Shown here piece after piece: positions 6,403 through 52,746 of a DNA stretch of 64,000 nucleotides; the first letter of the stretch is position 1, and each line of letters opens with the position of its first letter. The position numbers and the translations under genes are program-made. This DNA is from Herpetosiphon aurantiacus DSM 785. Its GTDB lineage: Bacteria > Chloroflexota > Chloroflexia > Chloroflexales > Herpetosiphonaceae. The DNA lies in assembly GCA_000018565.1 (NCBI GenBank), contig CP000875.1, positions 821,199-885,198 on the forward strand, written 5' to 3'. The notes beneath the pieces were generated by a model that was not told the DNA's origin, did no database searches, and saw only the letters and a list, made by a program, of their open reading frames with translations.

Positions 6403-7998
6403 ATGCAAGCAACACCCGAACTAATTTTGATTGTGGATGATCAAACCACCAATGTGATGGTGTTACAGCGGATGTTAGAACGCGCTGGTTATGCTACTGC
6501 CTGTGCTCGCAGCGGCTTCGAAGCCTTGACCATGCTCGAACAACAAGTTCCCGATTTGATTTTGCTTGACGTAATGATGCCGGAGATGGATGGCTATCAA
6601 ACGCTTCAGGCGATTCGTGAACGTAATCATCTGCCATTTATTCCAATTATCTTTGTTTCGGCCAAGCAAACCACCGCCGATACGGTAACTGGTTTGGATT
6701 TGGGCGCTGATGATTACGTTACCAAGCCCGTCAATCGTGATGAATTGCTGGCTCGTATGCGGGTGCTGTTGCGTTTGAAGCATACGCGACGGGCGCTCCA
6801 TCGTGAACAAGAACGTTTGCGCTTTCTCTATCGGGTTTCGCAAACCTTGCATCGCTCGTTGGATATTGATCAAGTGCTGCCCGAAGCCTTGAATGCGATC
6901 AACGAGCTGTTGGGAGCCAGCCGTGGTAGCGTCTTGCTACTTGATGATCAAAATCGGGTTTGGCGGCGAATTCTGTTTCGACCGCATTTGCCGCCTGCCG
7001 AGGCTGAACAAGCGATTCAGGCGGTGTTGCGTGAAGGTTTGGCCTCGTATGCCTTGCGCACTGGCGAAGTCCAAATCGTCGAAGATGCCCAAAACGATCC
7101 CCGCTGGAAGCATTTTTATGATGATCGCGAGGAAATTGGCTCGGCGCTGGCCTTGCCATTGCATAATTATGCCCAAAATACGATTATCGGCGTATTTATC
7201 TTGGTGCATCCCCAACGCAACTTCTTCCGCACCGAGCTAGAAACCCTGATCAAAGCCTTGACTGATCAATTAAGCGTGGCCTTGACCAATGCGGCGGTTT
7301 ACACTCGTTTGCGCGAAGCTGAAGATAGCCGCGATAGTTTTATTCAGATGCTGACCCATGACTTACGCGCACCTTTGGCGGGCATGGTTGGCTGCTTCGA
7401 TGCCTTGATGACCACCCAACTTGACGATGATGGCAAATTGTTTGTCGAGCTTGGCTTTCGAGCCGGAGCTGCCCAACAACGCCTGATCGACGATTTGCTT
7501 GATGTTTACAAGGCTGAGGCAGGCCGCTTGATGCTTAGCAAGGAAACCACCAGCTTGCAACGTTTGGGTGAATTGCTGAGCGAGCAAGTATTGGGAATTA
7601 CGGTTGAACAACAACTGAGCTTTGAGCTTGATCTGCCAGCCGAGCCATTGGTGGTGCTTGATGAGCATAAAATGGTGCGCGTATTGGCCAATCTGGTCAG
7701 CAACGGCATCAAATGGACAAGGCCAGGTGGTACAATTCGCGTGGTTGGAACGATTGATCAAGCGCAGCAACTGATTACCCTAAACGTCAGCGATACGGGG
7801 CAGGGGATTGCTGCCGAAGATATTCCACATATTTTCGATAAATTTTATCAAGGTCGTACTACCGCCCAATCGCGGGGCACTGGTTTAGGCTTGACCTTTT
7901 GTAATTTAGCAGTTGGTGCTCATGGCGGCACAATTAGCGTGGATAGCCAAGTAGGCAAGGGGACGACGGTCACCGTGCAACTACCTTGGAAGGAGTAA
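6403..7998 (+). CDS. Hybrid sensor: receiver-GAF-histidine kinase
   Basis: A soluble 531-residue kinase with an N-terminal receiver domain (about 7-125; phospho-acceptor Asp in LLDVMMPEMDG), a GAF domain (about 150-300), then HisKA with His319 in LTHDLRAPL and a HATPase_c domain with N box (NLVSNGIKW), G1 (SDTGQGI) and G2 (GTGLGL) motifs. No membrane helix is present, so it should sense a cytoplasmic signal or receive phosphate from another kinase through the receiver. The next gene, 6 bp downstream, is an OmpR-type regulator and its probable partner. Confidence 0.92.
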   Translation: MQATPELILIVDDQTTNVMVLQRMLERAGYATACARSGFEALTMLEQQVPDLILLDVMMPEMDGYQTLQAIRERNHLPFIPIIFVSAKQTTADTVTGLDLGADDYVTKPVNRDELLARMRVLLRLKHTRRALHREQERLRFLYRVSQTLHRSLDIDQVLPEALNAINELLGASRGSVLLLDDQNRVWRRILFRPHLPPAEAEQAIQAVLREGLASYALRTGEVQIVEDAQNDPRWKHFYDDREEIGSALALPLHNYAQNTIIGVFILVHPQRNFFRTELETLIKALTDQLSVALTNAAVYTRLREAEDSRDSFIQMLTHDLRAPLAGMVGCFDALMTTQLDDDGKLFVELGFRAGAAQQRLIDDLLDVYKAEAGRLMLSKETTSLQRLGELLSEQVLGITVEQQLSFELDLPAEPLVVLDEHKMVRVLANLVSNGIKWTRPGGTIRVVGTIDQAQQLITLNVSDTGQGIAAEDIPHIFDKFYQGRTTAQSRGTGLGLTFCNLAVGAHGGTISVDSQVGKGTTVTVQLPWKE

Positions 7999-8004
7999 AC
8001 TCTA

Positions 8005-8715
8005 ATGCCAGCACGATGGCGTATTCTTGTAGTTGATGATGACACGATTATTCGCCGCACGCTCGTGAGCAATTTGCTTAACGATGGGTTTGAAGTAATG
8101 GCGGCAGAATCAGGCCAATCGGCCTTGACCATGGTCGAAAGTTCATGGCCTGATCTGGCGATTCTCGATTTGATGATGCCTGGTATGACTGGCTTTGAAC
8201 TATCCGACCGTTTGCGGCGCTATGTGGAAATTCCGGTAATTATGCTGACCTCGATTTCTGATGAGGCTACGACCGTGCGCGGCCTTGAGCAGCATGCCGA
8301 TGATTATATGACTAAGCCCTATCGCTACCCTGAATTGCGAGCGCGGGTCAACAAACTGCTGACCAAATCGTATGAAGGTGGCTTGCATCCAGGCGAGTTG
8401 GTGGTGATTGACGAAGATCTTTCGGTCAATTTTGGTCAGCATATTCTGTTGCGCAAGGGCGAGGCCATTCCGTTGGAGCCGATTGAGCTACGAGTGTTGT
8501 ATTTGCTGCTCCAAACGCCAACCGTGGCGGTGGCAACCACAACCCTGTTACGTAAAGCGTGGGGTTTGGGCGAAGAGGGCGATCAATCCTCGTTGTGGGT
8601 GCGAATTCGCTCGTTGCGCACCAAACTTGAGGACAATCCATCGAAGCCGATCTACTTAAAAACTGTGCGTGGCGTGGGCTACGTGTTTGACGTACAACCA
8701 CGGCGCGGCTTGTAA
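8005..8715 (+). CDS. OmpR/PhoB-family response regulator
   Basis: A 236-residue two-domain regulator. The receiver (about 5-120) has the acidic pair in VVDDD, phospho-acceptor Asp in AILDLMMPG, Thr in MLTS and Lys in TKPYR. The C-terminal winged helix (about 140-232) has the typical OmpR ending, VRGVGYVFD. It should bind DNA when phosphorylated by the hybrid kinase encoded 6 bp upstream. Target genes are unknown, and I found no obvious direct repeats in front of either gene. Confidence 0.93.
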   Translation: MPARWRILVVDDDTIIRRTLVSNLLNDGFEVMAAESGQSALTMVESSWPDLAILDLMMPGMTGFELSDRLRRYVEIPVIMLTSISDEATTVRGLEQHADDYMTKPYRYPELRARVNKLLTKSYEGGLHPGELVVIDEDLSVNFGQHILLRKGEAIPLEPIELRVLYLLLQTPTVAVATTTLLRKAWGLGEEGDQSSLWVRIRSLRTKLEDNPSKPIYLKTVRGVGYVFDVQPRRGL

Positions 8716-8791
8716 TCTTACTCGTAAACTTACATTCTTATAGTGGTGGTGATGGTTGCCCAAATGATCCATCGCTATAAGGATGTTAAGT

Positions 8792-9115
8792 ATGCTAAAG
8801 ACTGTTTTGCTGGTTGATCCCGACTGGATCACCCGAACGCTTATGAAATATCATCTTCATCGGGCAGGCTATACAGTCTACGAAGCCGATTCCTGCACCC
8901 TCGCGGCTCAATTGAACGAGCAATATCAGCCAGAATTTATCATCCTTGATGAAGCGATTACCATTGAACACAGCAATGCCCTCAATTGCCGCGATCATCA
9001 GAATTATATTTTGCTGACCGATCTGCCCCAACCCCGAACCACTGGCCGCTTGAGTTTAGCCAAGCCAATTACTGGCCATAATTTAATTAGCCAATTACAA
9101 GCCTATCAGGCCTAG
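8792..9115 (+). CDS. Shortened single-domain receiver protein
   Basis: A 107-residue protein resembling a CheY-type receiver but missing part of the alpha3-beta4 region. It keeps the key positions: acidic residues Asp9/Asp11 in VLLVDPD, a candidate phospho-acceptor Asp53 in IILDEA, Thr76 in LLTD and Lys91 in LAKP. The usual MPxxDG loop after the Asp is replaced by an EAITIEH stretch, and the domain is about 15 residues short. I start it at the second ATG because AGGAT is well placed before it. It follows the OmpR regulator and may be a phosphate sink or a pseudo-receiver. Confidence 0.75.
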   Translation: MLKTVLLVDPDWITRTLMKYHLHRAGYTVYEADSCTLAAQLNEQYQPEFIILDEAITIEHSNALNCRDHQNYILLTDLPQPRTTGRLSLAKPITGHNLISQLQAYQA

Positions 9116-9376: not shown

Positions 9377-9481
9377 AAGCTACGATTTGCTGCTTTAGAA
9401 CGCGCCATTTGTGATGATTCAATGCTTGGTTGCTGCTCAATTGAGCCACACAACCATTATTGAATCATGCGGGAGCCTATT

Positions 9482-9913
9482 GTGAGCCAAGTTGAGGATC
9501 AATTGGCGCAATTTGTGGTTTTTATCCTCGATCAAGAACGGTTTGCTTTGCCAGTTGAGCAGGCGCGTGGCATCGAACGTTGGCGTAATCCAACTCGCAT
9601 TCCAGGCACTGCGACGGCAATTATGGGTATTATCAATCAACGTGGGGTGCTGCTGACGGTGGTTGATATGCGGGTGGTTTTAGGCATGAAGCCAATTACC
9701 CCAACTCGGCGTAGTCGTTTTTTGCTCGTTCACGAACAGATTGATTGTGCAATTGCGGTTGATCAGGTGATCGATATGTTGACCTTGGATGTGGGTTTGG
9801 CCGAGCCAACTCCCCATCGTGGAACGGTCGCGAGCCGAGGTTTGCTGCCAACGCCATTTGGGTTTGCAACTTGGCTTGATCTTAATGCTCTACTTGGGTC
9901 GATCAATGGTTAA
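9482..9913 (+). CDS. cheW: CheW-type chemosensory coupling protein
   Basis: A 143-residue single CheW domain that should link the chemoreceptor to the CheA kinase encoded downstream. Typical features are FVVFILDQERFALPVEQ near the N-terminus, the RGVLLTVVDMR segment and a closing LDLNALL. I chose the GTG at 9482 because GGGAG lies 6 nt before it; the in-frame ATG at 9467 lacks a ribosome site. The end overlaps the start of the next gene by 8 nt, so the two are translationally coupled. Confidence 0.87.
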   Translation: MSQVEDQLAQFVVFILDQERFALPVEQARGIERWRNPTRIPGTATAIMGIINQRGVLLTVVDMRVVLGMKPITPTRRSRFLLVHEQIDCAIAVDQVIDMLTLDVGLAEPTPHRGTVASRGLLPTPFGFATWLDLNALLGSING

Positions 9914-10325
9914 TCCAGTCATTGTCAGCGATCTTTATCCAGTTAATGTTGGCGATCAAACGGTCTTGATTCGCCAAACCGCCTTGGTTGGTGTGGATTA
10001 TGTTGCCAATAGCGGGCAACCAATTAGCAGCGTGGTTCAGCAAACCAATCCAATCGATGTCATTGATCTAAATCAGTGGCTCCAGCAGCCAATTGGCCAA
10101 CAAGCCAATCGCTTAGCCTTATTTGTGGTTGGGCAAACAGCCATGGGCGTGGTAGTCGATCAATTGGGCGACCCGATTAGCACAGCCTTGAGCCTGCAAC
10201 CACTGCCAAGCCTAGTTTCCGATAGTTTGCTCGACCCCAGCATTTTGGGCATTATTATGCTCGATGAACGCCCATGCCTCATGCTTGATCTTGAACTGTT
10301 TGTGCTGGTACACGCCAAGCGCTAG
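9906..10325 (+). CDS. Second, divergent CheW-like protein
   Basis: A 139-residue protein starting at an ATG that overlaps the end of cheW (9906-9913). It has the CheW-fold pattern (VNVGDQTVLIRQTALVGVDYV, then LFVVGQTAMGVVVDQLGD, then CLMLDLELF at the end) but lacks the usual RG(x)PVVDLR core. It may be a second coupler or a competitor for the CheA P5 domain. The open frame extends upstream to 9789, but that part overlaps cheW in another frame and is not needed. Confidence 0.7.
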   Translation: MVNPVIVSDLYPVNVGDQTVLIRQTALVGVDYVANSGQPISSVVQQTNPIDVIDLNQWLQQPIGQQANRLALFVVGQTAMGVVVDQLGDPISTALSLQPLPSLVSDSLLDPSILGIIMLDERPCLMLDLELFVLVHAKR

Positions 10326-10347
10326 ACCAGTGCCAAGGAGTCTGCTC

Positions 10348-11847
10348 ATGGCGAATTTAGGTTCGCTTTTCTCGCTCGATTTTACGAATTTGGCTGATCG
10401 CCGCCGCGTGATTATGCGGATTGTTGCCTTGGCTGCCTTGGTTGTGCCTTTTTTAGTGGTCTTGGTGGCGTGGATTTACGAACGCAATAATCCGCAATTG
10501 TGGGATGCGCTTGGGGTTTTGTTTGTCTCGATGGGCGCGGTTTGGTTGATTGCCTTGTTCAGCTTGCGCATGATTAATCAAGGCCAAGATCAAATTGTTA
10601 CCTATGTTTTAATTGGCACAATTTCGTTGTCAGCCTTGGCTTGTGCCGTGCGTTATGGCGGCATCGATCAAAGCCTGATTGTCTCGCTGTTGCTGGTGAT
10701 GCTGTTTATTGTCGGTTTGGTCGCAACATGGCGCGAAATTGTCTCGTATGGCGTTACGATTACTTTGGCTTATGGCCTGTTATTACTGTTCAAGAGCAAC
10801 CTTGAATCATTTCAAGTGACAACCCTGACCGCTGCCAATAACGCCGGGGTCTATGGGGTTGGTGCGGTGCTGTTTTTTGTTGGCTTGGCTACCACGATTG
10901 TGCTGACCACGATTTTTAGCCGTGCTTTGGCTGAATATTCGCAAAAAAGCGAGCAATGGACAGCCGATTTGATGCGGGCCAATGAACAATTGATCGAGAA
11001 AAATATTCAGCAGATCGAGCTTGGCACTGATCTTTCGTTTGCCGCCACCGAGTTATCGGCAGCCTCGCAGCAACAAGCTTCGGGGGCAACTGAGCAAGCC
11101 TCGGCTGTGGCAGAAGTTTCATCAACCATCGAAGAATTGGGCTTTACCGCGCGACAAATTGCTAGCGCCTCGGATCAAGTCAGCATAGCCGCCCAACAAA
11201 CCTTGACCTCGTTGGCCATGGGTCAGCAATCGGTTGATGAAGCAATTCAAGGCATGGAGCGGATCAAGCAGCGGGTGCAAGAGGTTTCTTCGCGGGTTTT
11301 GAGTTTGGGCGAACGTTCGCATCATATTAGCGAAATTATTGCCTTGATCGATGATGTTTCCGATGAAACCCACCTGCTGGCCTTGAATGCGGCGATCGAA
11401 GCGGCTGGAGCTGGCGAGCATGGTCGGCGATTTGCCGTGGTTGCCGCCGAAGTCAAGAGCTTGGCCAATCGCACGTTGGCCGCCTCGCGCGAAGTCAAAG
11501 ATGTGATTGCCGAAATTCAGGCTGCGACCAACGCCTCAGTGCTAGCCACCGAAGAGAGCGTCAAAGAAGTCGAACAAGGGGTCAGTTTGGCCCATCGTGC
11601 TGGCCAAGAGATGGATTCAATTGTGGTGTTGGGCGAACATACCGCTCAATTAGCCCAAGAAATTAGCCTAGCAACCGCTCAACAACAAACTGCATCGGAG
11701 CAAGTTGTTGAAACCATGCGTGAAATTGCCGAAGTCTCACGTCAAACGGCGGCTGGTTCGCGCCAAACTGCCGATGCCGCATCCAAACTCACCGCGATTG
11801 CAAATCGCTTGCATTCGTTGGTCAACATCGAGGCACATACACGCTAA
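10348..11847 (+). CDS. Methyl-accepting chemotaxis protein with six-helix membrane domain
   Basis: A 499-residue receptor. Six predicted membrane helices (within about 20-215) are joined by very short loops, so there is no sizeable extracellular sensor domain. The cytoplasmic half is a long coiled signalling domain whose tip is ETHLLALNAAIEAAGAGEHG, close to the conserved MCP hairpin; Gln/Glu-rich helices on both sides provide methylation candidates for CheR and CheB encoded downstream. The start has AAGGAG 7 nt upstream. It probably senses a signal within the membrane or through an unknown partner. The 22-bp gap to the preceding gene suggests one operon. Confidence 0.9.
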   Translation: MANLGSLFSLDFTNLADRRRVIMRIVALAALVVPFLVVLVAWIYERNNPQLWDALGVLFVSMGAVWLIALFSLRMINQGQDQIVTYVLIGTISLSALACAVRYGGIDQSLIVSLLLVMLFIVGLVATWREIVSYGVTITLAYGLLLLFKSNLESFQVTTLTAANNAGVYGVGAVLFFVGLATTIVLTTIFSRALAEYSQKSEQWTADLMRANEQLIEKNIQQIELGTDLSFAATELSAASQQQASGATEQASAVAEVSSTIEELGFTARQIASASDQVSIAAQQTLTSLAMGQQSVDEAIQGMERIKQRVQEVSSRVLSLGERSHHISEIIALIDDVSDETHLLALNAAIEAAGAGEHGRRFAVVAAEVKSLANRTLAASREVKDVIAEIQAATNASVLATEESVKEVEQGVSLAHRAGQEMDSIVVLGEHTAQLAQEISLATAQQQTASEQVVETMREIAEVSRQTAAGSRQTADAASKLTAIANRLHSLVNIEAHTR

Positions 11848-11862
11848 GCGAGGAGCTATCGC

Positions 11863-14151
11863 ATGGGCGGTTTTGATTTATCAGCATTTTTTGGCCAGTT
11901 TCGCGAAGAAACTGAAGAGAATGTGCGGGCCTTGACCACAGGCTTATTGGCCTTGGAGTCAAACCCAGGCGATCGCGAAGCGATTGATACGATTTTTCGG
12001 GCGGCGCATACGATCAAAGGTTCGGCGCGTATGCTGGGTCAAGTCGATATGGGGCGGTTGGCGCATACCATGGAAAGTTTGCTTTCGGCCTTGCGCAGTG
12101 GCATGCTAGCCATGAATTCGAGCATTAACGATGTGCTACTGGCCAGTGTTGATGTATTGCTGGTGTTGAATTCCCAAGTCAACGAGCCACCGCCAACCGA
12201 CCCCAACGTTGATCGTTTGGTTGAGCAACTGAATGCCTTGGCTGCTGGCGAAAGCTTGCCTGCTGCGCCGATTGTCGCGCCAGTAACCGAACCAGAACCA
12301 GAGCCTGAGCCAGTAGTGCTTGAGCAACCCAAGCCCGAACCAGCGGTTGCTAAGCCAGCCGCGCCTGCCAAACCCAAAAAATCAGCCTCAGCCGAAGCCC
12401 CCAAGTCGGTGAGTAGCACCCGTTCAACCGTGCGTGTGCCAATTTCGCGCTTAGATCGTTTGTTGAATACCGCTGGCGAGTTGGTCGTAACCCGCCAATT
12501 GCACCTTGAGCATGTCGCTGATCTTGAGGCTTTGGATAAATTGCTGACCAAAAGTGAGCGCCTGAGCCAACAATTGAGCGAACGCTTGACGGGTCAACGG
12601 GTGACCTTTCAGCAACGGCGCGAGGCCAGCGAATTAGCCAGCCAATTGCAAAATCTGGCCCAATCGACCCGCAATCAGTTGCGTTTGCTAACCGAGCGTT
12701 GGAGCAGCCATAGCGCCGCCAGTGAGGCCTTGGTCGATGAACTTGAGGCTGAGGTGATGGCGACCCGTTTGCAACCAGTCGCTGGTTTGTTTGCACCAAT
12801 TCCTCGGGCCGTGCGCGAGCTGGCTCGTTCGTTGGGCAAAGAAGTTAACTTAATCACCGAAGGCGAAACCACCGAGGCCGATCGCAAAGTGATTGAGTTA
12901 ATGGCTGATCCGTTGGTGCATTTGGTGCGCAACGCGCTTGATCATGGCATCGAAAGCCCCGATGAGCGGGTGAAAGCCCACAAGCCTGCCGAAGCAAGCT
13001 TGCGTTTAGAAGCTCGCTCGTTGGGCGGCACGATTGAAATTATTATTAGCGACGATGGCCGTGGCATCGATCCAGCGGTGATTCGGGCAACTGCAATTAA
13101 ACGCGGAATTATCGAGGCTGATACAGCGGCTCGCTTGCGTGATGAAGAAGCTTTGGAGTTGATCTGGCAGCCTGGTTTTTCCACCAGCGCAATCATCACC
13201 GATGTTTCAGGCCGTGGCGTTGGCATGGACGTGGTACGGGCAGCAGTGACCGAGGTTGGTGGGCGGGTCGATGTGCATTCGGTGCTTGGCCAAGGCACGA
13301 CCTTCACGCTGATTTTGCCAATTACCTTGCTAACCACCCGCGTGTTGTTGTTTGATGTGGCTGGCACAACCTATGCCTTGCCTTCGACTGCTTGTCTAGG
13401 TGGGCGGCGGGTTGCTGGCGGGCAAATTCAGACCGTCGAAGGGCGACCAACCGTGCGGGTTGATGAGCGCAGCGTGAGCATTGTAGCGCTTGCGCCCTTG
13501 CTTGAGCAGCGTGGCCCCTTGCCGCAACCATCGGATATTTCCAATTTGGTGATTTTGGGGCCAGCTAATCGCCCATTGGCCTTGTTGGTCGATAAATTGG
13601 TCGATGAACGTGAGGTGGTGGTTAAATCGTTGGGCGCATTGTTGCATGAACAACGTTTGTGTACTGGCGCGATTGCCCTGCCTGATGGGCGTTTGGTGTT
13701 AGTGCTCAATCCCTTGGCGATTGCGGCGCGGGCACGTGAATGGGGCAAACCAGTTGCCTTGCCAGCGCCAACCAAGCTCCAGCCTGCCAAATTATTGGTC
13801 GCGGAAGATTCATTTACCACCCGCGAACTGCTCCGATCCATGCTGCAATCGGCGGGCTATGTGGTTGAAACGGCGATTAACGGCCAAGATGCGCTTGACA
13901 AGCTCAATCACAATTCCTACGATCTGCTGGTAAGCGATGTTGAAATGCCGTTGCTAACTGGCTTTGAGCTAACCCGCCGTGTGCGTGCCCATGACCGTTT
14001 GCGCCAACTGCCAATTATCATTATCACCAGCTTGGCCCGCGATAGCGATCGGCGTGAAGGCTTGTTGGCTGGTGCGCAAGCCTATATCGTCAAAAGCCAG
14101 TTTGATCAAAGCAACTTGCTCGAAACGATTCATCAATTACTTGGCCGCTAA
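11863..14151 (+). CDS. cheA: CheA-type chemosensory kinase fused to a receiver
   Basis: A 762-residue hybrid kinase. The N-terminal Hpt domain has the phosphorylated His49 in AAHTIKGSARML. A Pro/Glu/Ala-rich linker (about 135-185) stands where a P2 domain would be. Next come an enlarged dimerisation domain (about 190-300), the HATPase core with N box LVHLVRNALDHGIE, G1 DDGRGID and G2 GRGVGMDVVR, a CheW-like P5 domain (about 485-625), and a C-terminal receiver (about 640-760) with phospho-acceptor Asp in SDVEMP. No P2 domain is recognisable. This CheA-receiver layout is typical of alternative (non-flagellar) chemosensory systems, in keeping with a gliding organism. Confidence 0.93.
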   Translation: MGGFDLSAFFGQFREETEENVRALTTGLLALESNPGDREAIDTIFRAAHTIKGSARMLGQVDMGRLAHTMESLLSALRSGMLAMNSSINDVLLASVDVLLVLNSQVNEPPPTDPNVDRLVEQLNALAAGESLPAAPIVAPVTEPEPEPEPVVLEQPKPEPAVAKPAAPAKPKKSASAEAPKSVSSTRSTVRVPISRLDRLLNTAGELVVTRQLHLEHVADLEALDKLLTKSERLSQQLSERLTGQRVTFQQRREASELASQLQNLAQSTRNQLRLLTERWSSHSAASEALVDELEAEVMATRLQPVAGLFAPIPRAVRELARSLGKEVNLITEGETTEADRKVIELMADPLVHLVRNALDHGIESPDERVKAHKPAEASLRLEARSLGGTIEIIISDDGRGIDPAVIRATAIKRGIIEADTAARLRDEEALELIWQPGFSTSAIITDVSGRGVGMDVVRAAVTEVGGRVDVHSVLGQGTTFTLILPITLLTTRVLLFDVAGTTYALPSTACLGGRRVAGGQIQTVEGRPTVRVDERSVSIVALAPLLEQRGPLPQPSDISNLVILGPANRPLALLVDKLVDEREVVVKSLGALLHEQRLCTGAIALPDGRLVLVLNPLAIAARAREWGKPVALPAPTKLQPAKLLVAEDSFTTRELLRSMLQSAGYVVETAINGQDALDKLNHNSYDLLVSDVEMPLLTGFELTRRVRAHDRLRQLPIIIITSLARDSDRREGLLAGAQAYIVKSQFDQSNLLETIHQLLGR

Positions 14152-14198
14152 AATAGCGCAGCCCTGAAGGCCTATATTCCCCTGCGAGGAGTTTTTCA

Positions 14199-14558
14199 AT
14201 GAGTGAACGCATCTTAGTTGTTGACGATAGCAAACTGGTTACCGATATTGTCAAAATGCGGCTGGAAATGTATGGCTATGCTGTCGATTTGGCCTACAGC
14301 GGCGAGGAAGCGCTGCAAAAAATCGGCGATCTCACGCCTGATTTGGTGGTGTTGGATGTGCAGATGCCTGGAATTGATGGCTATGAGGTTTGCCGTCAGT
14401 TACGCGCCAATCCCTTGTTTGAAGAGCTGCCAATTATCATGCTAACTTCGATGGATGATAAACGGGCTGGCTTTGAAGCTGGGGTTGACGATTATCTCAA
14501 CAAAGATCTTGATTTGCTCGATTTGCCCAATCGGGTCAAACTGTTGTTGGGTATGTAA
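14199..14558 (+). CDS. CheY-like response regulator
   Basis: A 119-residue stand-alone receiver with acidic pair in VVDDSK, phospho-acceptor Asp in VLDVQMPGIDGYE, Thr in MLTSMDD and Lys in NKDLD in place of the common KP. GAGGAG-type ribosome site lies 8 nt upstream. It is placed between cheA and cheB and its stop overlaps the cheB start, so it is the probable output regulator of the array. The missing Pro after Lys is a minor departure from the family. Confidence 0.9.
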   Translation: MSERILVVDDSKLVTDIVKMRLEMYGYAVDLAYSGEEALQKIGDLTPDLVVLDVQMPGIDGYEVCRQLRANPLFEELPIIMLTSMDDKRAGFEAGVDDYLNKDLDLLDLPNRVKLLLGM

Positions 14559-15640
14559 TGATGACAGGGCCGCTTGCACCAATTCGAGTGTTAGTTGTCG
14601 ATGATTCGGCGGTTTCGCGCCGAGTCATCAGCACTATTTTAGCCAGTGATCCCGCGATTCAAGTGGTTGGCGAGGCCCGTGATGGCCGTGAGGCGGTGCA
14701 ATTGGTGGCAGCATTGCAACCCGATATTATCACGATGGATGTGCGCATGCCGGTGATGGATGGTTTGCAGGCCACCGAAGAAATTATGGCCTATCATCCT
14801 ACGCCGATTTTGGTGATTACTTCATCATTGACCCGCCATGATCGTAATTTAACCTTTCAAATGCTCAATGCTGGGGCTTTGGAAGTTTGGGAGAAACCAA
14901 CCGACCTGACCCTAGCCCAAGGCGAGGCCAATCGCATGCGGCTGTTGGAGCGGGTCAAGGTACTCTCGCGAGTTAAAGTGCTGACCCATTTGCGCGGGCG
15001 ACGGCGCAAATCACCAACAACCGAAACTAATATTCCCTTATTATTGGCTTCGGCTAGCCCGCCAAGCCAACGTTGGCTAATTGTGGTTGGGGCTTCGACT
15101 GGCGGCCCACGAGTGTTATACAAACTCCTGCATAGCCTGCCTGCGAGCATCCCCGCAAGCATTATCATTGTGCAGCACATCGCTGAGGGATTTGTTGGTA
15201 CAATGGTAGACTGGTTGGACAATCATTCGCCCTTGACGGTGGAATTGGCTCAACATCGTGGCAGCTTGAAAAATGGTCATGTCTATGTTGCGCCCGATAC
15301 CCATCATTTGAGGGTTGATGCTACCTGGACGGTGCATTTGGAAACCGAACCCGATAATTTGCTCTATCCATCAGTCGATGTGACCATGCAATCAGCTGCC
15401 AAAGTGTTGCCCAAACAAACGATCGGGGTGCTGTTGACTGGCATGGGGCGCGATGGAGCGCAAGGATTGTTGGCTTTACGCCGCTCTGGCGCTCGCACGA
15501 TCGCTCAGGATCGAGCCACCAGCGCAATTTGGGGCATGCCACGGGCGGCAGAGGAAGCTGGGGCTGCCATGGAATTTTTAGCTGCTGATCTGATTGCACC
15601 GCGTTTGGTGGCGTTGCTCAGCGAAACTGAACGTCGATGA
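14558..15640 (+). CDS. cheB: Chemoreceptor methylesterase/deamidase CheB
   Basis: A 360-residue CheB with an N-terminal receiver (Asp in TMDVRMPVMDG) and a C-terminal methylesterase domain. The catalytic triad is visible: Ser in VVGASTGGPR (near residue 177), His in IVQHIAEGF and Asp in LTGMGRDGAQG. It should remove methyl groups from, or deamidate, the receptor at 10348-11847 when phosphorylated by CheA. Its ATG shares a base with the preceding stop (TAATG), and its own stop overlaps the next start (ATGA). Confidence 0.95.
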   Translation: MMTGPLAPIRVLVVDDSAVSRRVISTILASDPAIQVVGEARDGREAVQLVAALQPDIITMDVRMPVMDGLQATEEIMAYHPTPILVITSSLTRHDRNLTFQMLNAGALEVWEKPTDLTLAQGEANRMRLLERVKVLSRVKVLTHLRGRRRKSPTTETNIPLLLASASPPSQRWLIVVGASTGGPRVLYKLLHSLPASIPASIIIVQHIAEGFVGTMVDWLDNHSPLTVELAQHRGSLKNGHVYVAPDTHHLRVDATWTVHLETEPDNLLYPSVDVTMQSAAKVLPKQTIGVLLTGMGRDGAQGLLALRRSGARTIAQDRATSAIWGMPRAAEEAGAAMEFLAADLIAPRLVALLSETERR

Positions 15641-17097
15641 GCGAGTTGAGCACTGAACAATGGATGATCATCCGCGATTATCTGGCTCAACGGGCTGGCT
15701 TATATCTCGATGATAGTCGTATGCGCCAAGGTCGTATGCTTGTTCAGGAGCGTTATCGGCAATTACAAATTAGCCCCGCTGCCTATACATTGCGAATTCA
15801 AGACCCCACTAATGGCGGCGAGTTGCAATGGTTGGCTGAACGCTTAGCTAACCATGAAACCCAATTTTTTCGCAACCCAGCCCATTTTCGAGCGTTGCGT
15901 GAGCATATTCTGCCTGAATTGCAGCGTTCGCGTTCGCCCTTGCGACCATTACGCTGTTGGAGTGCTGGCTGCTCAACTGGCGAGGAACCCTATAGCATGG
16001 CCATGGTGGCCTTGCAGCAATGGGGCAATCCGCCGAGCCGCCCAATTTCGATTTGGGCCACCGATTTGAGCAATGTGCCCTTGGAGCGAGCGATTGCCGC
16101 CGAGTATCGTGGCCGTTCGCTAACAAATGTGCAAGCCGACTACAGACAATGGTTTGAGCAGCAGGCCAACGGAGCGTTGCGTGTCAGCGAAGCCGTGCGA
16201 TCCTTGGTACAATTTGAGCAGCACAATTTGCTGGATGCCCTGCCACATTGGGCCTATCAACTTGATGTGGTATTTTGCCAGAATGTCACGATCTATTTTC
16301 AGCTGGAAACATGTCGCCAATTGATCGAACGGATTTATGCGGCGATGGCGGTTGGTGGCTATCTGCTCTTGGGCTTTTCCGAGTCGCTGTGGGGCATTTT
16401 TGATCGCTTTGAAACGGTCGAGGTGGCTGGGGCATTCATCTATCGCAAAGGCGATGGTCAGCCTAAACCACGCCCCAACTTGAGCGAAGGACCAATCACC
16501 AAGCCGCTGAATAAGCCAGCCGAGCCAGTACCAGCGCGGCCACGCCCAAGTACGCGGCCATTAGCGCCAGCCAGCCCAATTAAGCCGCCCGATGTGACGA
16601 GCTTGTTGGATGAAGCACGGAAATTGCGCGGCCAAGGCCAGCAGCGACGTGGATTAAGCCTGTTGGCGAGTATTGCGCCCAACCAGCGCCAGCCAGCAAT
16701 TTTGGCTTTAGCCGCGCAATTGCACGCCGATCTTGGGCAGCATGAGCAAGCGGCGGCTGAGGCGCGGCGGGCATTAGAGCTTGATGTGCTGCAAGATGCT
16801 GCCTATGTCGTGCTGGGCATGATTGAACTCAATCAAGGCGCATGGGATAAAGCGATTAATTATCTTGAGCGAGCCAGCTATTTAGTGCCCGATTCGCCAA
16901 CGATTGCCTTTCATTTAGCTGAAAGTTATCGCCATCAAGGGCGAGCAACCGCCGCCTTACGTTATTATCAACATGCCTTGCGCAAATTGGCGCAGCATTC
17001 AAGTAGTACGGTTATTGATGGAATTGCCGTGGGGTGGCTGCGTTCTGCTTGTGAACGCTGGATTGGCGGATTAGAAGCCAGCCAAGGAACATTCTAA
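15637..17097 (+). CDS. cheR: Chemoreceptor methyltransferase CheR with C-terminal TPR region
   Basis: A 486-residue SAM-dependent methyltransferase. The CheR domain (about 1-275) has NHETQFFRN near residue 70, the SAM-binding CWSAGCSTGEEPYS near 105-120, and NVTIYF in the C-terminal half. A Pro-rich linker (about 285-320) leads to tetratricopeptide repeats (about 325-470), as in CheR proteins of alternative chemosensory systems, where TPRs mediate protein contacts. It should methylate glutamates of the co-encoded receptor. The start overlaps the cheB stop by 4 nt. Confidence 0.93.
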   Translation: MSELSTEQWMIIRDYLAQRAGLYLDDSRMRQGRMLVQERYRQLQISPAAYTLRIQDPTNGGELQWLAERLANHETQFFRNPAHFRALREHILPELQRSRSPLRPLRCWSAGCSTGEEPYSMAMVALQQWGNPPSRPISIWATDLSNVPLERAIAAEYRGRSLTNVQADYRQWFEQQANGALRVSEAVRSLVQFEQHNLLDALPHWAYQLDVVFCQNVTIYFQLETCRQLIERIYAAMAVGGYLLLGFSESLWGIFDRFETVEVAGAFIYRKGDGQPKPRPNLSEGPITKPLNKPAEPVPARPRPSTRPLAPASPIKPPDVTSLLDEARKLRGQGQQRRGLSLLASIAPNQRQPAILALAAQLHADLGQHEQAAAEARRALELDVLQDAAYVVLGMIELNQGAWDKAINYLERASYLVPDSPTIAFHLAESYRHQGRATAALRYYQHALRKLAQHSSSTVIDGIAVGWLRSACERWIGGLEASQGTF

Positions 17098-17101
17098 AAC
17101 T

Positions 17102-18196
17102 ATGCAAAAAGCACAATCAGCAATCTATAGTTCACTGCTCAGTCACCGCGCCCAAGGTCGTGTGGCGGTTCTGCTTGAGCCACCAGTACCAACCCCGCCC
17201 GTAGCGCCTGAACCCGACCAACGCCAAGCTGAACTGGAACAAGATTTGCAATTGGCGCGAGATTTGCAACAGGGCTTGATGCTCGAAACCGTGCCGCGCC
17301 TGCCTGGCTGGGAAATGAGCGCGGTCTCATTGCCAGCGCGTGAGCTTGGCGGCGACCTCTATGATTTTTTGGCGGTCAACGGCTCGCAGGGAATTATGAT
17401 TGGCGATGTGAGCGGCAAGGGCTTACCTGCGGCGTTGCGGATGGCGGTAGCACGAACCGTGTTTCGGGCTGAAGTCCGGCGCGGCCAATCGCCAGGCCAA
17501 ACCCTAGCGGCAGTCAATAATATTTTGATCGAAGAAATGCCCCAAGGCATGGTTACGATGCTCTATGCCTTAATCGACCCGCAAACGGGCATGATGCACT
17601 TGGCGAATGCTGGTCACAATTATCTGATTGTGATCAATAATCAAGTGATTGAAATCGAAACGTCAGGTGTGCCACTTGGGGTTATGGAAATTGATTGTTA
17701 TAGTGAATCCATCTTACAACTGAACTATGGCGATTCAGTCATGTTGTACACTGATGGTATTGTTGAAGCGACCAACGAACACCAAGTATTGTATGGCTAC
17801 CCGCGTTTTCAAAGCCTGTTACAAGCAGTTGGCCATCTCAAGCCTCGCGCCTTGATGGCCCGCGTGCTGAGCGAAGTTCGCGCATGGACCCAAGGCCAGC
17901 TTAAACACGATGATGTGACGATGGTGCTAGTCCGGCGGCGCTTGGCCAATTTGCTTGATGAAATGCATAGCATTGTGGCCGATGTGGTTGGGCCAATCAC
18001 TGCTGACGAGTGGTGGCAAGCCTTGAGCTTGGTTGGTACAACCCGCACACCCGACCAATGTTTAGAGTTATTGCGCCCGCTGAATGAAATGGTATCCAGC
18101 CAATTTGGCCGTGGGATTGCCCGCGAACTCCAAGCGCAATTGCGCCCAGTGATCGAAGAATATCGCTTGCTCCAATCCACCAAAGGATCGTCCTAA
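17102..18196 (+). CDS. PP2C-type (SpoIIE/RsbU) serine phosphatase
   Basis: A 364-residue soluble phosphatase, starting 4 nt after cheR. After a variable 55-residue N-terminus and a short helix (LQLARDLQQGLM), the SpoIIE domain (about 75-285) shows the metal-binding acids in GGDLYDF, IGDVSGKGLP, YTDGIVEA and HDDVTMVLV. About 80 residues follow the catalytic domain and are of unknown fold. In the known partner-switch pathway such an enzyme dephosphorylates a STAS protein; the RsbW-like kinase and STAS genes lie just downstream. There is no sensor domain, so activity may depend on the chemosensory proteins. Confidence 0.9.
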   Translation: MQKAQSAIYSSLLSHRAQGRVAVLLEPPVPTPPVAPEPDQRQAELEQDLQLARDLQQGLMLETVPRLPGWEMSAVSLPARELGGDLYDFLAVNGSQGIMIGDVSGKGLPAALRMAVARTVFRAEVRRGQSPGQTLAAVNNILIEEMPQGMVTMLYALIDPQTGMMHLANAGHNYLIVINNQVIEIETSGVPLGVMEIDCYSESILQLNYGDSVMLYTDGIVEATNEHQVLYGYPRFQSLLQAVGHLKPRALMARVLSEVRAWTQGQLKHDDVTMVLVRRRLANLLDEMHSIVADVVGPITADEWWQALSLVGTTRTPDQCLELLRPLNEMVSSQFGRGIARELQAQLRPVIEEYRLLQSTKGSS

Positions 18197-18206
18197 GGGA
18201 ACTGTT

Positions 18207-19763
18207 ATGACTACCAATGTTGACACTTTGAATGTAATGCCGCTGGACCTCGATACCTTTGCTGGGAGCGAGCGTTTTATGGCTGGGACGCGCTTGGGTG
18301 CTGCGTTTGGGCGCGGGATCAAAGCCTATTTGGCCGCCAATTATCCTGATGCAATCGAGCATTTCAAAACTGCATTAATCGCTGCCTATGTTGAAGGCGA
18401 TGAGAAATCGCAAATCTACGATCGCGAGCGGGCGATTATCTATCTGTATATTGGCAATGCCTGTGCTTTTCAAGATGATTGGCCGACGGCTCAGCGTGAG
18501 TATTTGGAATCGGTACAAACCGACCCGCAATTGGCCGAAGCCCACTACAATTTGGGTGTTGCTTTCGGCGCGATGCGCCAAATTGATCGGGCAATTGGCG
18601 CATTCAAGGAAGCGCTTGAACATAATAATGGCTTGTACGAGGCCCATTTTGCACTTGGCCGTGCTTATCAAATGCTCGATGATGCTGGCCGCGCCTATAT
18701 TCACTTTACTTCAGCCCGTGAATTGCGGCCTTACGCTGGCGAGCCTTTGTATTACATGGGTTTGATGCACCAAGCCCATGGTGCTCACGAATTGGCACAG
18801 CGCTGTTTTGCCGAGGCGCTGCGAGTTGAGCCAACCTTTATCTCGCCTAGCGTTGGCCCCGATGAAGTGCTGGTTAGCAAATCGGAGCAAGAGGTTGCCA
18901 ATTGGTACTATCGTTTGAGTGACGACCTTAAATCCCAAGGCTATGATGAAGATGCCAAGCGGATTTACGAGGCTTTGCTGAAATGGCGACCAACCGAGCA
19001 TCGTGCCCGCTATTTGTTGGGCAATTTGTTGGCGCGGGCGCGACGTTGGGAATTGGCTTTGCAAGAATATGGCCGAATTCCACCGCAAGATCGCTACTAT
19101 GTTGATGCGCGACTGCGGATCAGTGCAATTTTGCGTTTTCAGGGCAAGCATCGCGAGGCCTATAACCATTTGTATAGTACCGCCAAGTTGCGGCCCAACG
19201 ATGGTCAAGTGTTCTTGCAAATGGGCAAATTGCTCTATGATTTAGAGAAACATCATGCTGCGATGCGTGCTTTTGAACGCGCGGTCCAACTTTTGCCCAA
19301 AGACCCTAATGCCTACTATTTGTTAGGGTTTATGTACACGGTGTTGGGCCATGAAAGTTGGGCCTTGGCGGCTTGGCGCAAAGCAGTGGAGTTAGCGCCG
19401 CATGCCCATTCATTGCGCTACGATTTGGGCTATATGTACACCCGCCGTCGCCGCTACGATTTGGCTTCGCGCGAATTTAGCCATGTACTGATGCATTGGC
19501 CCGATGATATTGAAACCACCTTTATGCTGGGCACATGTTATAAAGAAATGTTAGAACCAGCCCAAGCCATACCGTTATTTGAAAAAGTGCTGCGCCGCAA
19601 CCCACGTCATACCCAAGCACTCTACTATTTGGGGGCATGCTATCTGCAAGTTGGCAACAGTTCTTTGGGTAAGGCCTACCTGCGCCGCTACGAACATCTG
19701 ATCAACCAACAGGAACAATTACCACAAAAGGGCCGCGCAATGGCTCGTGGAGGTTCGCGATGA
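18207..19763 (+). CDS. Tetratricopeptide-repeat scaffold protein
   Basis: A 518-residue soluble protein built mostly of TPR units, seen as repeated patterns such as AEAHYNLGVAFGAM, LYEAHFALGRAYQ, NAYYLLGFMYTVLG and TQALYYLGACYLQVG. No enzyme motif is visible. It is encoded between the PP2C phosphatase and the RsbW-like kinase and overlaps the latter by 4 nt, so it probably acts as a scaffold linking them or linking them to CheR-TPR. Specific partners cannot be named from sequence. Confidence 0.85.
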   Translation: MTTNVDTLNVMPLDLDTFAGSERFMAGTRLGAAFGRGIKAYLAANYPDAIEHFKTALIAAYVEGDEKSQIYDRERAIIYLYIGNACAFQDDWPTAQREYLESVQTDPQLAEAHYNLGVAFGAMRQIDRAIGAFKEALEHNNGLYEAHFALGRAYQMLDDAGRAYIHFTSARELRPYAGEPLYYMGLMHQAHGAHELAQRCFAEALRVEPTFISPSVGPDEVLVSKSEQEVANWYYRLSDDLKSQGYDEDAKRIYEALLKWRPTEHRARYLLGNLLARARRWELALQEYGRIPPQDRYYVDARLRISAILRFQGKHREAYNHLYSTAKLRPNDGQVFLQMGKLLYDLEKHHAAMRAFERAVQLLPKDPNAYYLLGFMYTVLGHESWALAAWRKAVELAPHAHSLRYDLGYMYTRRRRYDLASREFSHVLMHWPDDIETTFMLGTCYKEMLEPAQAIPLFEKVLRRNPRHTQALYYLGACYLQVGNSSLGKAYLRRYEHLINQQEQLPQKGRAMARGGSR

Positions 19764-20179
19764 ATCGGATTCACCTCAATATTCCATCGGATTTGGTCTT
19801 TGAGCGGGTTGTGCGAGCTAGTGCTGCCGAACTCGGTAGCACAATGGGCTTTCCACGTGAGCGCGTCGAAGATTTGAAACTGGCGGTGAGCGAAGCAGTA
19901 ACCAATGCTATCGAGCATGGTGGTGGCGGCGGCGTGGCTGGTTCGGTCGAAGTGATTTTCTCGTTGCATGCCGATCAATTAGAAGTTGAAATTATTGATC
20001 ATGGCAAAGGCATCGAGCATTTCAACACTGAACGGCGGGTGGTCGAGGAAGATAATCTCGAAGCAGGCATGCTGCGCGGCTTCGGCTCCTATCTCATCAG
20101 CGAGTTAGTTGATCAATACGAAGTGCAAAGTTCGGGCACAGGCACAAGTTTGCGCCTACGGATTTTCAAAGCGAAGTAA
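19760..20179 (+). CDS. RsbW/SpoIIAB-like anti-sigma serine kinase
   Basis: A 139-residue HATPase_c_2 protein. The N box (LKLAVSEAVTNAIEHGG, near residues 43-60), G1 motif (IIDHGKGIE) and the C-terminal GFGSYLISELVD plus SGTGTSLRL motifs are all present. In the known pathway such kinases bind a sigma factor or another client and phosphorylate a STAS antagonist. No sigma gene is adjacent. It overlaps the TPR gene by 4 nt (ATGA), so it is the last tightly coupled gene of the operon. Confidence 0.9.
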   Translation: MNRIHLNIPSDLVFERVVRASAAELGSTMGFPRERVEDLKLAVSEAVTNAIEHGGGGGVAGSVEVIFSLHADQLEVEIIDHGKGIEHFNTERRVVEEDNLEAGMLRGFGSYLISELVDQYEVQSSGTGTSLRLRIFKAK

Positions 20180-20180
20180 G

Positions 20181-20520
20181 GGTCAGGGGCTAGGGTTGAT
20201 CTACGAAGGGCACGAAGCTCGCGGGATCAGGTTTCATGGCTGAGAGTGTTTTATCTGGCCCCTGACCCCTAGTCCCTAGCTGTAATGGTAATGACCAGTC
20301 TGCCCTCACCCCCTGACCCTCTCCTTTCAAGGATAGGTAGTTAACCATGATTTGGGTGGGATTTACTGCCGATTAGCATGCCCTCACCCCCTAGCTCCCT
20401 CTCTCGCCCAGCAGGCGAGGGGTTGGGGGTGAGGGAACGTTGATTTCAAAAAGCCTATAGTCTTTGGATTAAATGCCGATCCCCAGCCCCTAGTCCCTGA
20501 AACCTAGCCCCTGACCTCTC
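20181..20520. repeat. Palindromic GC-rich repeat block between RsbW-like and STAS genes
   Basis: Non-coding block. It begins with GGGTCAGGGGCTAGGG, and the matching inverse form CCCTGACCCCTAGTCCCTAG appears about 80 bp later. From 20301 it carries the CCCTCACCCCCT / GGGGGTGAGGG palindrome that recurs elsewhere in the window, preceded by CTTTCAAGGATAGG. Third-form CCCCTAGTCCCTG copies follow near 20480. It separates the STAS gene from the operon it should belong to. Confidence 0.75.
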
Positions 20521-20556
20521 ATCAGAAATCTGTCATCAAAAATTCATGCGGCTTGG

Positions 20557-20590
20557 TTGCCAAAAATCGTCTGCTCAACTATGATCATAG
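20557..20590 (+). promoter_or_regulatory. Promoter of the STAS gene with dyad element
   Basis: TTGCCA (20557-20562), 17-bp spacer, TATGAT (20580-20585). The -10 box is part of a 12-bp perfect palindrome CTATGATCATAG (20579-20590), which could be an operator or chance symmetry. It lies about 40 nt before the ATG at 20628. Confidence 0.5.
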
Positions 20591-20627
20591 CAGAGTTGGC
20601 CGCGTTGACCAACCTAGGAGATCTATT

Positions 20628-20993
20628 ATGAGCGATGTACAAGCGGTAATTCGACGAGAAGAGTGGGATGATGTCGTGCTGTTGCATATTCTGACCAACA
20701 GCGTCGATGCGGTCTCGGCAGCAACGATCGAGCATGCCTGTACCCAGATGAAACCAATCACTGTTTTAGATTTTGCCGATGTGGCGTTTATCAACTCAGC
20801 TGGCATTTCGGTGTTGCTGAAGTTTGTGGTTGCTGCTCGCAAGAATGGCTATAAAGTCTTTTGTTTACACGTCAGCCCGCACCATCAAAAAATCTTTAAG
20901 ATGGTCGAGATGACGCGCTTTATGCCAGTAATCGAAGAACAAGATTTGGCGGCCTATACCAACGCCCAACAATCATCAATCTCCAATTCTTAA
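20628..20993 (+). CDS. STAS-domain anti-sigma factor antagonist
   Basis: A 121-residue STAS protein of the SpoIIAA/RsbV type. The motif INSAGISVLL aligns with the SpoIIAA DSSG phosphorylation loop, and the Ser at the phospho-acceptor position is retained while the following residue is Ala. It should be phosphorylated by the RsbW-like kinase and dephosphorylated by the PP2C phosphatase encoded upstream. The start at 20628 follows TAGGAG by 7 nt; the frame is open further upstream, but no ribosome site is seen there. It has its own promoter after the repeat block. Confidence 0.88.
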   Translation: MSDVQAVIRREEWDDVVLLHILTNSVDAVSAATIEHACTQMKPITVLDFADVAFINSAGISVLLKFVVAARKNGYKVFCLHVSPHHQKIFKMVEMTRFMPVIEEQDLAAYTNAQQSSISNS

Positions 20994-51354: not shown

Positions 51355-52746
51355 ATGATATTTCAATCGAACAATGATCTGAGCTCACAAAACCTTGAAA
51401 CATTGACAGATTCGCAACGAAAAGCTGTCTTTCTTAAGCGACTTATAAAAATAATTATTGGAGTTCATTGCTTTTTTGGTAGCTTGATTCTTATTGTTTT
51501 TTTATTCAATCCGGATCGAAATATTATTGGATCTATTTTATCACTTGCAATAAATTCGGGTGTATATTACTTAATTTATACGGTGGTTAAGGATAAAAAT
51601 TCAGCTTTTAGTTATTACTTTTTTTGTATTTATACAAATTCATTGTTTTTAGTCCTTGTGCTAGTAAATTATGATGATAGTGTCAACGAAACTTTATTTT
51701 CATATATGTTGGGTATTTGTATTATGTTCTTTGTGTTCTTCACAGATTATAAAAAGTCTTTGATATCAGCATTTGTTAATACAGCATTTATTCTCTATAT
51801 TGCATATCAACCTAGTTTACAATGGATCGCCCATACACTTCCTATTTTAAGCTTTTTTATTATTATTACTGCCGTAGCGTGGATTTATCAACGGACACTT
51901 GATAATTCGATGATCTCGTTACAAGCGGCTCGTCAGCAATTGATGCAAGATACCCTGATTCGCCAAGAGTTAGCGATTGCCCGTAATTTGCAGCAAGAAC
52001 TCTACCCCAAACCGCAACACTACAGCGAATGCCTCGATATTGGTGCTTCGGTGCAGCCAGCGCTCGAAACTAGCGGCGATTTGTATGATCTGATTCGCCT
52101 GAACGACGATGAGATTGCAATTATTGTGGGTGATGCAACTGGCAAGAGTGTTGCCGCCGCCATGGTAATGGCGATGACCCGCTCGATTATTCGCAGTGAA
52201 GCCCGCCGTTCACGCAATCCAGGCCATGTTTTGCGCCATGTCAACGCCATTTTGCATGCCGATGATGCGGTCAATCAGATGATGACGGTCTGGTATGGAG
52301 TGCTGAATTTGCGCCATCATCAATTACGCTTTGCCAATGCTGGCCACCCCTTTCCGTTGTTGCGGCGCAATGGAGTGGTGCAAGAGCTAGAGGCTTTTGG
52401 CACGCCGCTGCGTTCGATTCGCAATTTCCCCTATGCCGAGCAAACCATCCAATTGCAAGCCAATGATCGCTTGGTGGTCTATACCGATGGCGTGATTGAA
52501 ACTATGAACGAAGACCGTGAATTATATAGTTTTGATCGTTGGTGCGCCGCTGTGCGTGATATTGAAGCTGAAAATACGGCTGGCTTGATCGATGCCTACT
52601 GTGCGGCGGTTGATGAGTTTCGGGGAGCCGCCCGCCAAGCTGATGACTTGACTTTGGTGGTCGTCGATATCATCAAAGATCCTAGCGAAGTGGTAACCCT
52701 TCCCGTTGCCGATACCACAGCTGTTGTTGTAACCGCTGATCAATAA
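51355..52746 (+). CDS. Membrane-bound PP2C-type (SpoIIE-like) phosphatase
   Basis: A 463-residue protein. The N-terminal 180 residues have about six membrane helices (near 29-50, 57-78, 84-106, 114-130, 135-152, 157-178) and an AT-rich base composition; from about base 51900 the codon use returns to that of the neighbours. The C-terminal SpoIIE domain (about 205-445) has ETSGDLYDL, GDATGKSVAAAM, YTDGVIET and ADDLTLVVVD, with the metal Asp residues present although GGD reads SGD. No HAMP linker. It should dephosphorylate a STAS-type protein. No ribosome site precedes the ATG, which directly follows a terminator hairpin. Confidence 0.87.
   Translation: MIFQSNNDLSSQNLETLTDSQRKAVFLKRLIKIIIGVHCFFGSLILIVFLFNPDRNIIGSILSLAINSGVYYLIYTVVKDKNSAFSYYFFCIYTNSLFLVLVLVNYDDSVNETLFSYMLGICIMFFVFFTDYKKSLISAFVNTAFILYIAYQPSLQWIAHTLPILSFFIIITAVAWIYQRTLDNSMISLQAARQQLMQDTLIRQELAIARNLQQELYPKPQHYSECLDIGASVQPALETSGDLYDLIRLNDDEIAIIVGDATGKSVAAAMVMAMTRSIIRSEARRSRNPGHVLRHVNAILHADDAVNQMMTVWYGVLNLRHHQLRFANAGHPFPLLRRNGVVQELEAFGTPLRSIRNFPYAEQTIQLQANDRLVVYTDGVIETMNEDRELYSFDRWCAAVRDIEAENTAGLIDAYCAAVDEFRGAARQADDLTLVVVDIIKDPSEVVTLPVADTTAVVVTADQ

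Follow-up and report, generated by a model that had tools for sequence, protein, structure and literature searches.

The window analyzed here was a 64,000-nt stretch of the Herpetosiphon aurantiacus DSM 785 genome (contig positions 821,199–885,198; genome of 6,785,430 bp in three contigs). All coordinates are positions within this window, and labels of the form L0xx/L1xx and G0xx/G1xx denote fetched loci and genomes, respectively. The window contained a chemosensory operon running into the genes of a partner switch, in the order cheW, a divergent cheW2, mcp, cheA, cheY, cheB, cheR-TPR (TPR, tetratricopeptide repeat), a PP2C phosphatase gene, a stand-alone TPR gene and rsbW, with a STAS gene 448 nt beyond. 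Every gene of the operon was intact and on the + strand, and the STAS gene lay on the same strand.

The chemosensory half began with cheW (9482–9913; Pfam CheW, 77 bits), which has a GTG start, an ATG at 9467 being also possible. It was overlapped by 8 nt by cheW2 (9906–10325), a gene without a Pfam match that was assigned to CheW by profile–profile comparison (hhalign, 96%, E 5e-9); its identity is backed by the gene in the same place in the deep-branch loci L157–L159, which is a Pfam CheW. The chemoreceptor (methyl-accepting chemotaxis protein, MCP; 10348–11847; MCPsignal, 130 bits) had six membrane helices predicted from hydropathy and a long cytoplasmic hairpin, equal in length to that of CtpM and about four heptads longer than that of Escherichia coli Tsr; Pfam domain search and hydropathy revealed no recognized periplasmic or extracellular sensor domain. 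CheA (11863–14151) comprised Hpt, H-kinase_dim, HATPase_c and CheW domains and a C-terminal REC domain, with the phospho-His motif HTIKG and the N and G boxes all intact. CheY (14199–14558) was a single-domain response regulator (REC, 96 bits) with Asp53, Thr83 and Lys102 present, CheB (14558–15640) was a REC-methylesterase with STGG and MGRDGA motifs, and CheR-TPR (15637–17097) was a methyltransferase (CheR, 175 bits) with C-terminal TPRs. Used as a query, CheR-TPR found itself as the sole CheR match in the H. aurantiacus genome. Only two CheW-domain matches were found genome-wide, cheW and the CheA of this cluster, indicating that the genome has no second che system.

The switch half opened with a SpoIIE/RsbU-type PP2C phosphatase (17102–18196; SpoIIE, 159 bits) that lacked a REC domain and had intact Asp motifs, with all four metal-binding motifs present; its model resembled RsbU of Rv1364c, SiaA, RssB and SpoIIE in a fold comparison. 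The phosphatase carried lineage-specific N- and C-terminal extensions. The C-terminal one, which is helical and conserved in Chloroflexales (aa 284–363; 17953–18175), ends in GRGLARELxQQLRLALEDYR and is a possible docking element for the TPR protein. The stand-alone TPR protein (18207–19763), a putative adaptor, was modeled as a TPR superhelix (mean pLDDT 87), for which Foldseek returned generic TPR superhelices only. The RsbW/SpoIIAB-like serine kinase (19760–20179; HATPase_c_2, 90 bits; PDB RsbW 6m36, E 4.5e-14) had an intact ATP site, with the N box SEAVTNAIEHG, G1 DHGKG and G2 RGFG. The SpoIIAA/RsbV-like STAS protein (20628–20993; STAS, 31.6 bits) contained the motif FINSAGIS, invariant bar one position, with an invariant candidate phospho-Ser57 and an Asn in place of the usual Asp before the Ser.

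At the DNA level, ATGA overlaps of 4 nt joined cheB to cheR (15637–15640) and TPR to rsbW (19760–19763), cheY and cheB overlapped by 1 nt, PP2C began 4 nt past cheR, and TPR began 10 nt past PP2C. The genes and junctions of the initial annotation were correct, apart from cheW2, which it had missed, and the STAS start, which it had placed at 20553 and which is better set at the ATG at 20628 (aligned starts, RBS (ribosome-binding site) GGAG). Its description of one coupled operon applied to the tightly packed genes from cheW to rsbW; it did not extend to STAS, separated from rsbW by a spacer (20180–20627, assigned to no strand) of interspersed and palindromic repeats, with a promoter-like TTGCCA-17-TATGAT at 20557–20585, just upstream of STAS. 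Overall, scans for promoters and terminators gave results close to chance. The absence of flagellar genes, noted earlier for the window, held genome-wide for FliG: FliG_C was absent from this genome and from seven relatives.

Conservation of gene order was examined with CheR-TPR as a query against 120 genomes of the class, followed by inspection of 40 loci of 20 kb. Close full-length CheR-TPR matches occurred in nearly the whole order Chloroflexales. In 34 of the 40 loci, covering Herpetosiphon, Roseiflexus, Chloroflexus, Oscillochloris and Kouleothrix, CheR-PP2C-TPR was followed by RsbW-STAS on the same strand, and the order CheA-CheY-CheB-CheR preceded the switch wherever the contig extended that far. 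Independent named genomes were concordant, with all six marker genes in 32 of the 38 that had enough flank. The six exceptions were a contig end (L039), two Herpetosiphon loci (L033 and L034) and three loci of Chloroploca. In 22 of the 34 loci, the overlap between RsbW and STAS was exactly 4 nt; since most relatives show this overlap, the 448-nt spacer is a derived state. The rsbW–STAS junction appears as a hotspot in Herpetosiphon, being occupied by repeats here and by about 30.5 kb in the near-identical sister species L033/L034, whose STAS genes lie at L074/L075.

Outside the genus, median identity to the window was 76% for CheY, 72% for TPR, 71% for STAS and 59% for RsbW, followed by PP2C (52%), CheA (46%) and CheR (44%). 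Across 400 genomes from the phylum, a STAS search returned a single strong ortholog per genome, essentially only in Chloroflexales, at 59–76% identity outside the genus. Among 84,980 species genomes scanned, close relatives of the TPR family, apart from generic TPR proteins, were found in Chloroflexota only: Herpetosiphon, Roseiflexus, Chloroflexus, Oscillochloris, Kouleothrix, Viridilinea, Chloroploca and a deep branch including Ca. Chloroheliaceae. One record of the family labeled Gracilibacteria is probably misbinned. In a Chloroflexaceae metagenome-assembled genome carrying the TPR gene (L127:2076–3665; 72% identity), no switch or che gene was detected over 2 kb upstream and 10 kb downstream of it.

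The deep branch (L157, L158, and L159) had the same modules in another order, rsbW-STAS-PP2C-TPR-cheW-cheW2-cheA-cheY-(cheB)-cheR. No chemoreceptor was present in these clusters, and cheB was not detected in those of L158 and L159, though cheR-TPR was present. That the modules stayed together despite the new order is stronger evidence of a functional link than mere operon inheritance, and chance is excluded because the order was kept across Chloroflexales and the rearranged deep branch was linked as well.

Further evidence came from Ca. Chloroploca (L049, L053, and L066), in which che and TPR were kept and PP2C, RsbW and STAS were gone from the locus. No STAS ortholog was found elsewhere in the Chloroploca genomes in the phylum search, and the RsbW proteins left in them were paralogues at 37–38% identity. 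Constraint was compared at columns invariant in all other loci, with four distant loci set aside. Chloroploca had changed 31 of 263 such columns in TPR (Fisher p 7e-12 vs control genes) and 6 of 59 in CheY (p 9e-5), compared with 3 of 477 in the control genes MCP, CheW, CheA, CheB and CheR together. Among the other genera, the corresponding values were 21/2309 for TPR and 2/548 for CheY, with per-genus maxima of 2.2 and 1.9%. The changes were concentrated in residues 1–222 of TPR (28 of 31, p 2e-6) and, by alignment, in the alpha4-beta5-alpha5 region of CheY (5 of 6). The Chloroploca stem made up 10.5% of the TPR tree length, compared with 3.0–4.4% in the MCP, CheA, CheB and CheR trees, and distances exceeded the control-gene expectation by about 8.7 SD (standard deviations) for TPR and about 2.5 SD for CheY. 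Additional Chloroflexales genomes, outside the definition of the columns, showed 0–11 deviations, apart from a deep family with 42–43, and Chloroploca 33. As the changes were nearly confined to CheY and TPR, these two proteins, TPR by its N-terminal half, stand out as having been under a constraint that depended on the switch. In Chloroploca L049, a REC gene directly followed TPR, and was itself followed by a glycosyltransferase gene.

Gene order, which the initial annotation proposed to check in relatives, was conserved, and the coupling of the che genes to the switch is well supported by adjacency, by linkage that survived rearrangement, by the joint loss in Chloroploca and by relaxation restricted to CheY and TPR. 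The joint loss and the specificity of the changes point to a route CheA→CheY→TPR→partner switch. On balance, and with moderate confidence, comparative genomics favors a single-receptor array of the 'alternative cellular function' (ACF) class, whose output branch would be a serine-phosphorylation partner switch from the same operon. The six-helix receptor in the membrane would control CheA via CheW, with CheR-TPR and CheB tuning the receptor through methylation, and CheA would phosphorylate CheY. CheY would in turn act on the dedicated TPR adaptor, shifting the balance between PP2C and the RsbW-like kinase on STAS. The phosphorylation state of STAS would be the output, and STAS would bind an effector, most likely not a sigma factor, that adjusts how the filament behaves at surfaces (its gliding, pili or polysaccharide).

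Several points weigh against this route. Coupling of the che genes to the switch is deduced from comparative genomics, from which we also infer the direction of the signal, the contacts of TPR with CheY and with the switch, and the kind of target involved. The Chloroploca test represents one loss event in three genomes of one genus, in CheY the signal is slight and the changes conservative, and a newly gained partner could also cause the changes in CheY and TPR. In Herpetosiphon, STAS lies apart by 448 nt or about 30.5 kb, so that its co-transcription is not required. The genome is also unusually rich in partner-switch parts (15 SpoIIE-type phosphatase matches and 56 STAS matches), and cross-talk with the other RsbW and SpoIIE proteins and about 55 other STAS domains is possible; a second SpoIIE domain lies in the window itself (52105–52668). 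Finally, the survey of candidate sigma clients covered factors with region 3 and not extracytoplasmic function (ECF) factors.

Reversed flow, in which the switch senses some other cue and STAS or TPR binds the array or CheY and sets its gain, so that the switch is an input to chemosensing, would produce the same linkage and the same CheY/TPR pattern in Chloroploca. It would also suit a PP2C that lacks REC yet carries lineage-specific extensions at both ends, and a route from STAS to a chemoreceptor was suggested for Campylobacterota (PMC9239204). However, PP2C and RsbW have no recognizable sensor domain, while the operon supplies a receptor, CheA and CheY, and the constraint on CheA, MCP and CheW was not lost in Chloroploca, which makes this direction unlikely.

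The initial annotation had suggested an anti-sigma or similar output. In its canonical form, the RsbW-like protein would hold a sigma factor that is freed once PP2C dephosphorylates STAS, in keeping with the sequence and motif similarity of RsbW and STAS to RsbW/SpoIIAB and SpoIIAA. Yet the RsbW-like protein scored under the RsbW and SpoIIAB equivalog cut-offs, no sigma gene was recognized in the conserved neighborhood, and the genome's five region-3 sigma factors were all RpoD-like and below the SigB/F/G cut-offs, so no SigB/F/G-type sigma factor was found in this region-3 survey. The divergent fifth region-3 sigma factor had, by phylogenetic profile, seemed absent in the genus without the operon, and was rejected as a client because the genes concerned are RpoD-like and not the same from genome to genome. 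These results lend no support to a canonical anti-sigma output, which is improbable, and direct action of STAS on a non-sigma effector is more likely. Two separate systems that share a transcript for convenience of regulation, being needed in one growth phase or surface state, and that do not signal to each other directly, would fit the detachment of the Herpetosiphon STAS by repeats or a 30.5-kb insertion, the large PP2C–TPR gaps in many relatives (median 148 nt) and the retention of che without the switch in Chloroploca, but are the least probable alternative, since neither linkage through the deep-branch rearrangement nor CheY/TPR-specific relaxation after loss of the switch is expected from co-transcription alone.

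For a CheY–TPR–switch route, the effector of STAS would probably belong to surface motility or envelope polysaccharide. In Chloroflexaceae, STAS was followed by a single REC protein and then by a REC-GAF-HD-GYP phosphodiesterase (L059:14838–16869, L061:15937–17974), a hint of a role for cyclic-di-GMP in that family. Genus g6 (G042, G090, G100, G102, G108, G110, and G115; about 3 Mb, same order) was without the che operon. A link to type IV pili through this genus was considered and is only suggestive, the genomes being reduced too: no PilT-family match was found in any of them, and G042, the one tested, had no convincing PilB/GspE-type ATPase. Canonical PilT was likewise not found in the H. 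aurantiacus DSM 785 genome. Upstream of the che operon, a hybrid histidine kinase gene (6403–7998) and an OmpR-type regulator gene (8005–8715) preceded a truncated-looking orphan response-regulator gene (8783–9115).

The hosts are gliding, flagella-free filamentous Chloroflexota, in which gliding genes were reported as unidentified (Kiss et al., 2011, PMC3368417; similarly PMC5826079). As the genome has no other che system and this one is conserved across a gliding order, the operon offers a concrete entry point to gliding. Chloroploca was reported to be still motile (PMC6180586), implying that movement does not require the switch. This genus may serve as a natural knock-out that predicts contact surfaces in TPR residues 1–222 and in CheY alpha4-beta5-alpha5. 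Should the proposed route through CheY and TPR hold, a chemosensory array would be driving a serine-phosphorylation switch. We tentatively suggest, at somewhat less than even confidence, a distinct chemosensory class in which a CheA–CheY to TPR relay passes from His-Asp to Ser phosphorylation of STAS and controls surface behavior in gliding Chloroflexota.

Among known systems, the che half is of a known kind. According to Munoz-Martinez et al. (2012; PMC3447774), all Chloroflexi chemosensory pathways were classed as ACF, CheR-TPR proteins were typical of that class, and the Chloroflexi with CheR-TPR had no ordinary CheR. The present locus agreed in its MCP, CheA, CheW, CheB and CheR core, its CheR-TPR and its flagella-free host without FliG, and multidomain response regulators were represented by CheA-REC here and REC-GAF-HD-GYP downstream in Chloroflexaceae. 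Known ACF outputs consist of REC fused to effectors (GGDEF, histidine kinase, phosphatase and others), whereas the phosphatase here lacks REC and stands beside an RsbW kinase, STAS and a TPR adaptor, none of which is described in the passages of that survey consulted. The switch half shared with Rsb/SpoII-type systems a PP2C with Asp motifs, an RsbW/SpoIIAB kinase with an ATP site and a single-domain STAS with the Ser; a SigB/F/G client was not found among the region-3 factors. SiaABCD and HptB-HsbR-HsbA of Pseudomonas aeruginosa are likewise phosphatase–kinase–STAS switches whose output is not, or not solely, a sigma factor, SiaC acting on a diguanylate cyclase (PMC9239204). They differ in having other inputs, no operon-encoded MCP-CheA-CheY array and no TPR adaptor.

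The Frz system of Myxococcus xanthus, which controls surface motility, has, as here, two CheW-like proteins, a CheA-REC fusion, CheB and CheR-TPR. Its receptor FrzCD is cytoplasmic, in contrast to the six membrane helices of the receptor described here. Frz includes FrzZ and is not known to contain a PP2C/RsbW/STAS module. FrzF is itself listed as a CheR-TPR in the ACF survey (PMC3447774).

A Herpetosiphon genome paper (PMC6210107) names the che genes of this locus and none of the others, and as no description of the joined operon was found in the open-license papers searched, it looks undescribed. Chemosensory action via protein-serine phosphorylation may be so too, no description for any chemosensory system having been found in the same literature. 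The nearest functional analogue is in Nostoc punctiforme, a filamentous glider in which Hmp, a chemotaxis-like system, and the partner switch HmpU/V/W both act in hormogonium motility (PMC6495340) and the STAS protein HmpV is the proposed output on an unidentified effector (PMC8256260). The likeness is one of function, with a chemotaxis-like system and a PP2C/RsbW/STAS switch in each. The Nostoc genes are scattered, with locus tags wide apart (hmpA-F at Npun_F5960-64 and R5959, hmpU/W at R5135/R5134, hmpV at F5169; PMC10581220), whereas in Herpetosiphon the che and switch genes form one operon together with a TPR adaptor and the methylation enzymes.

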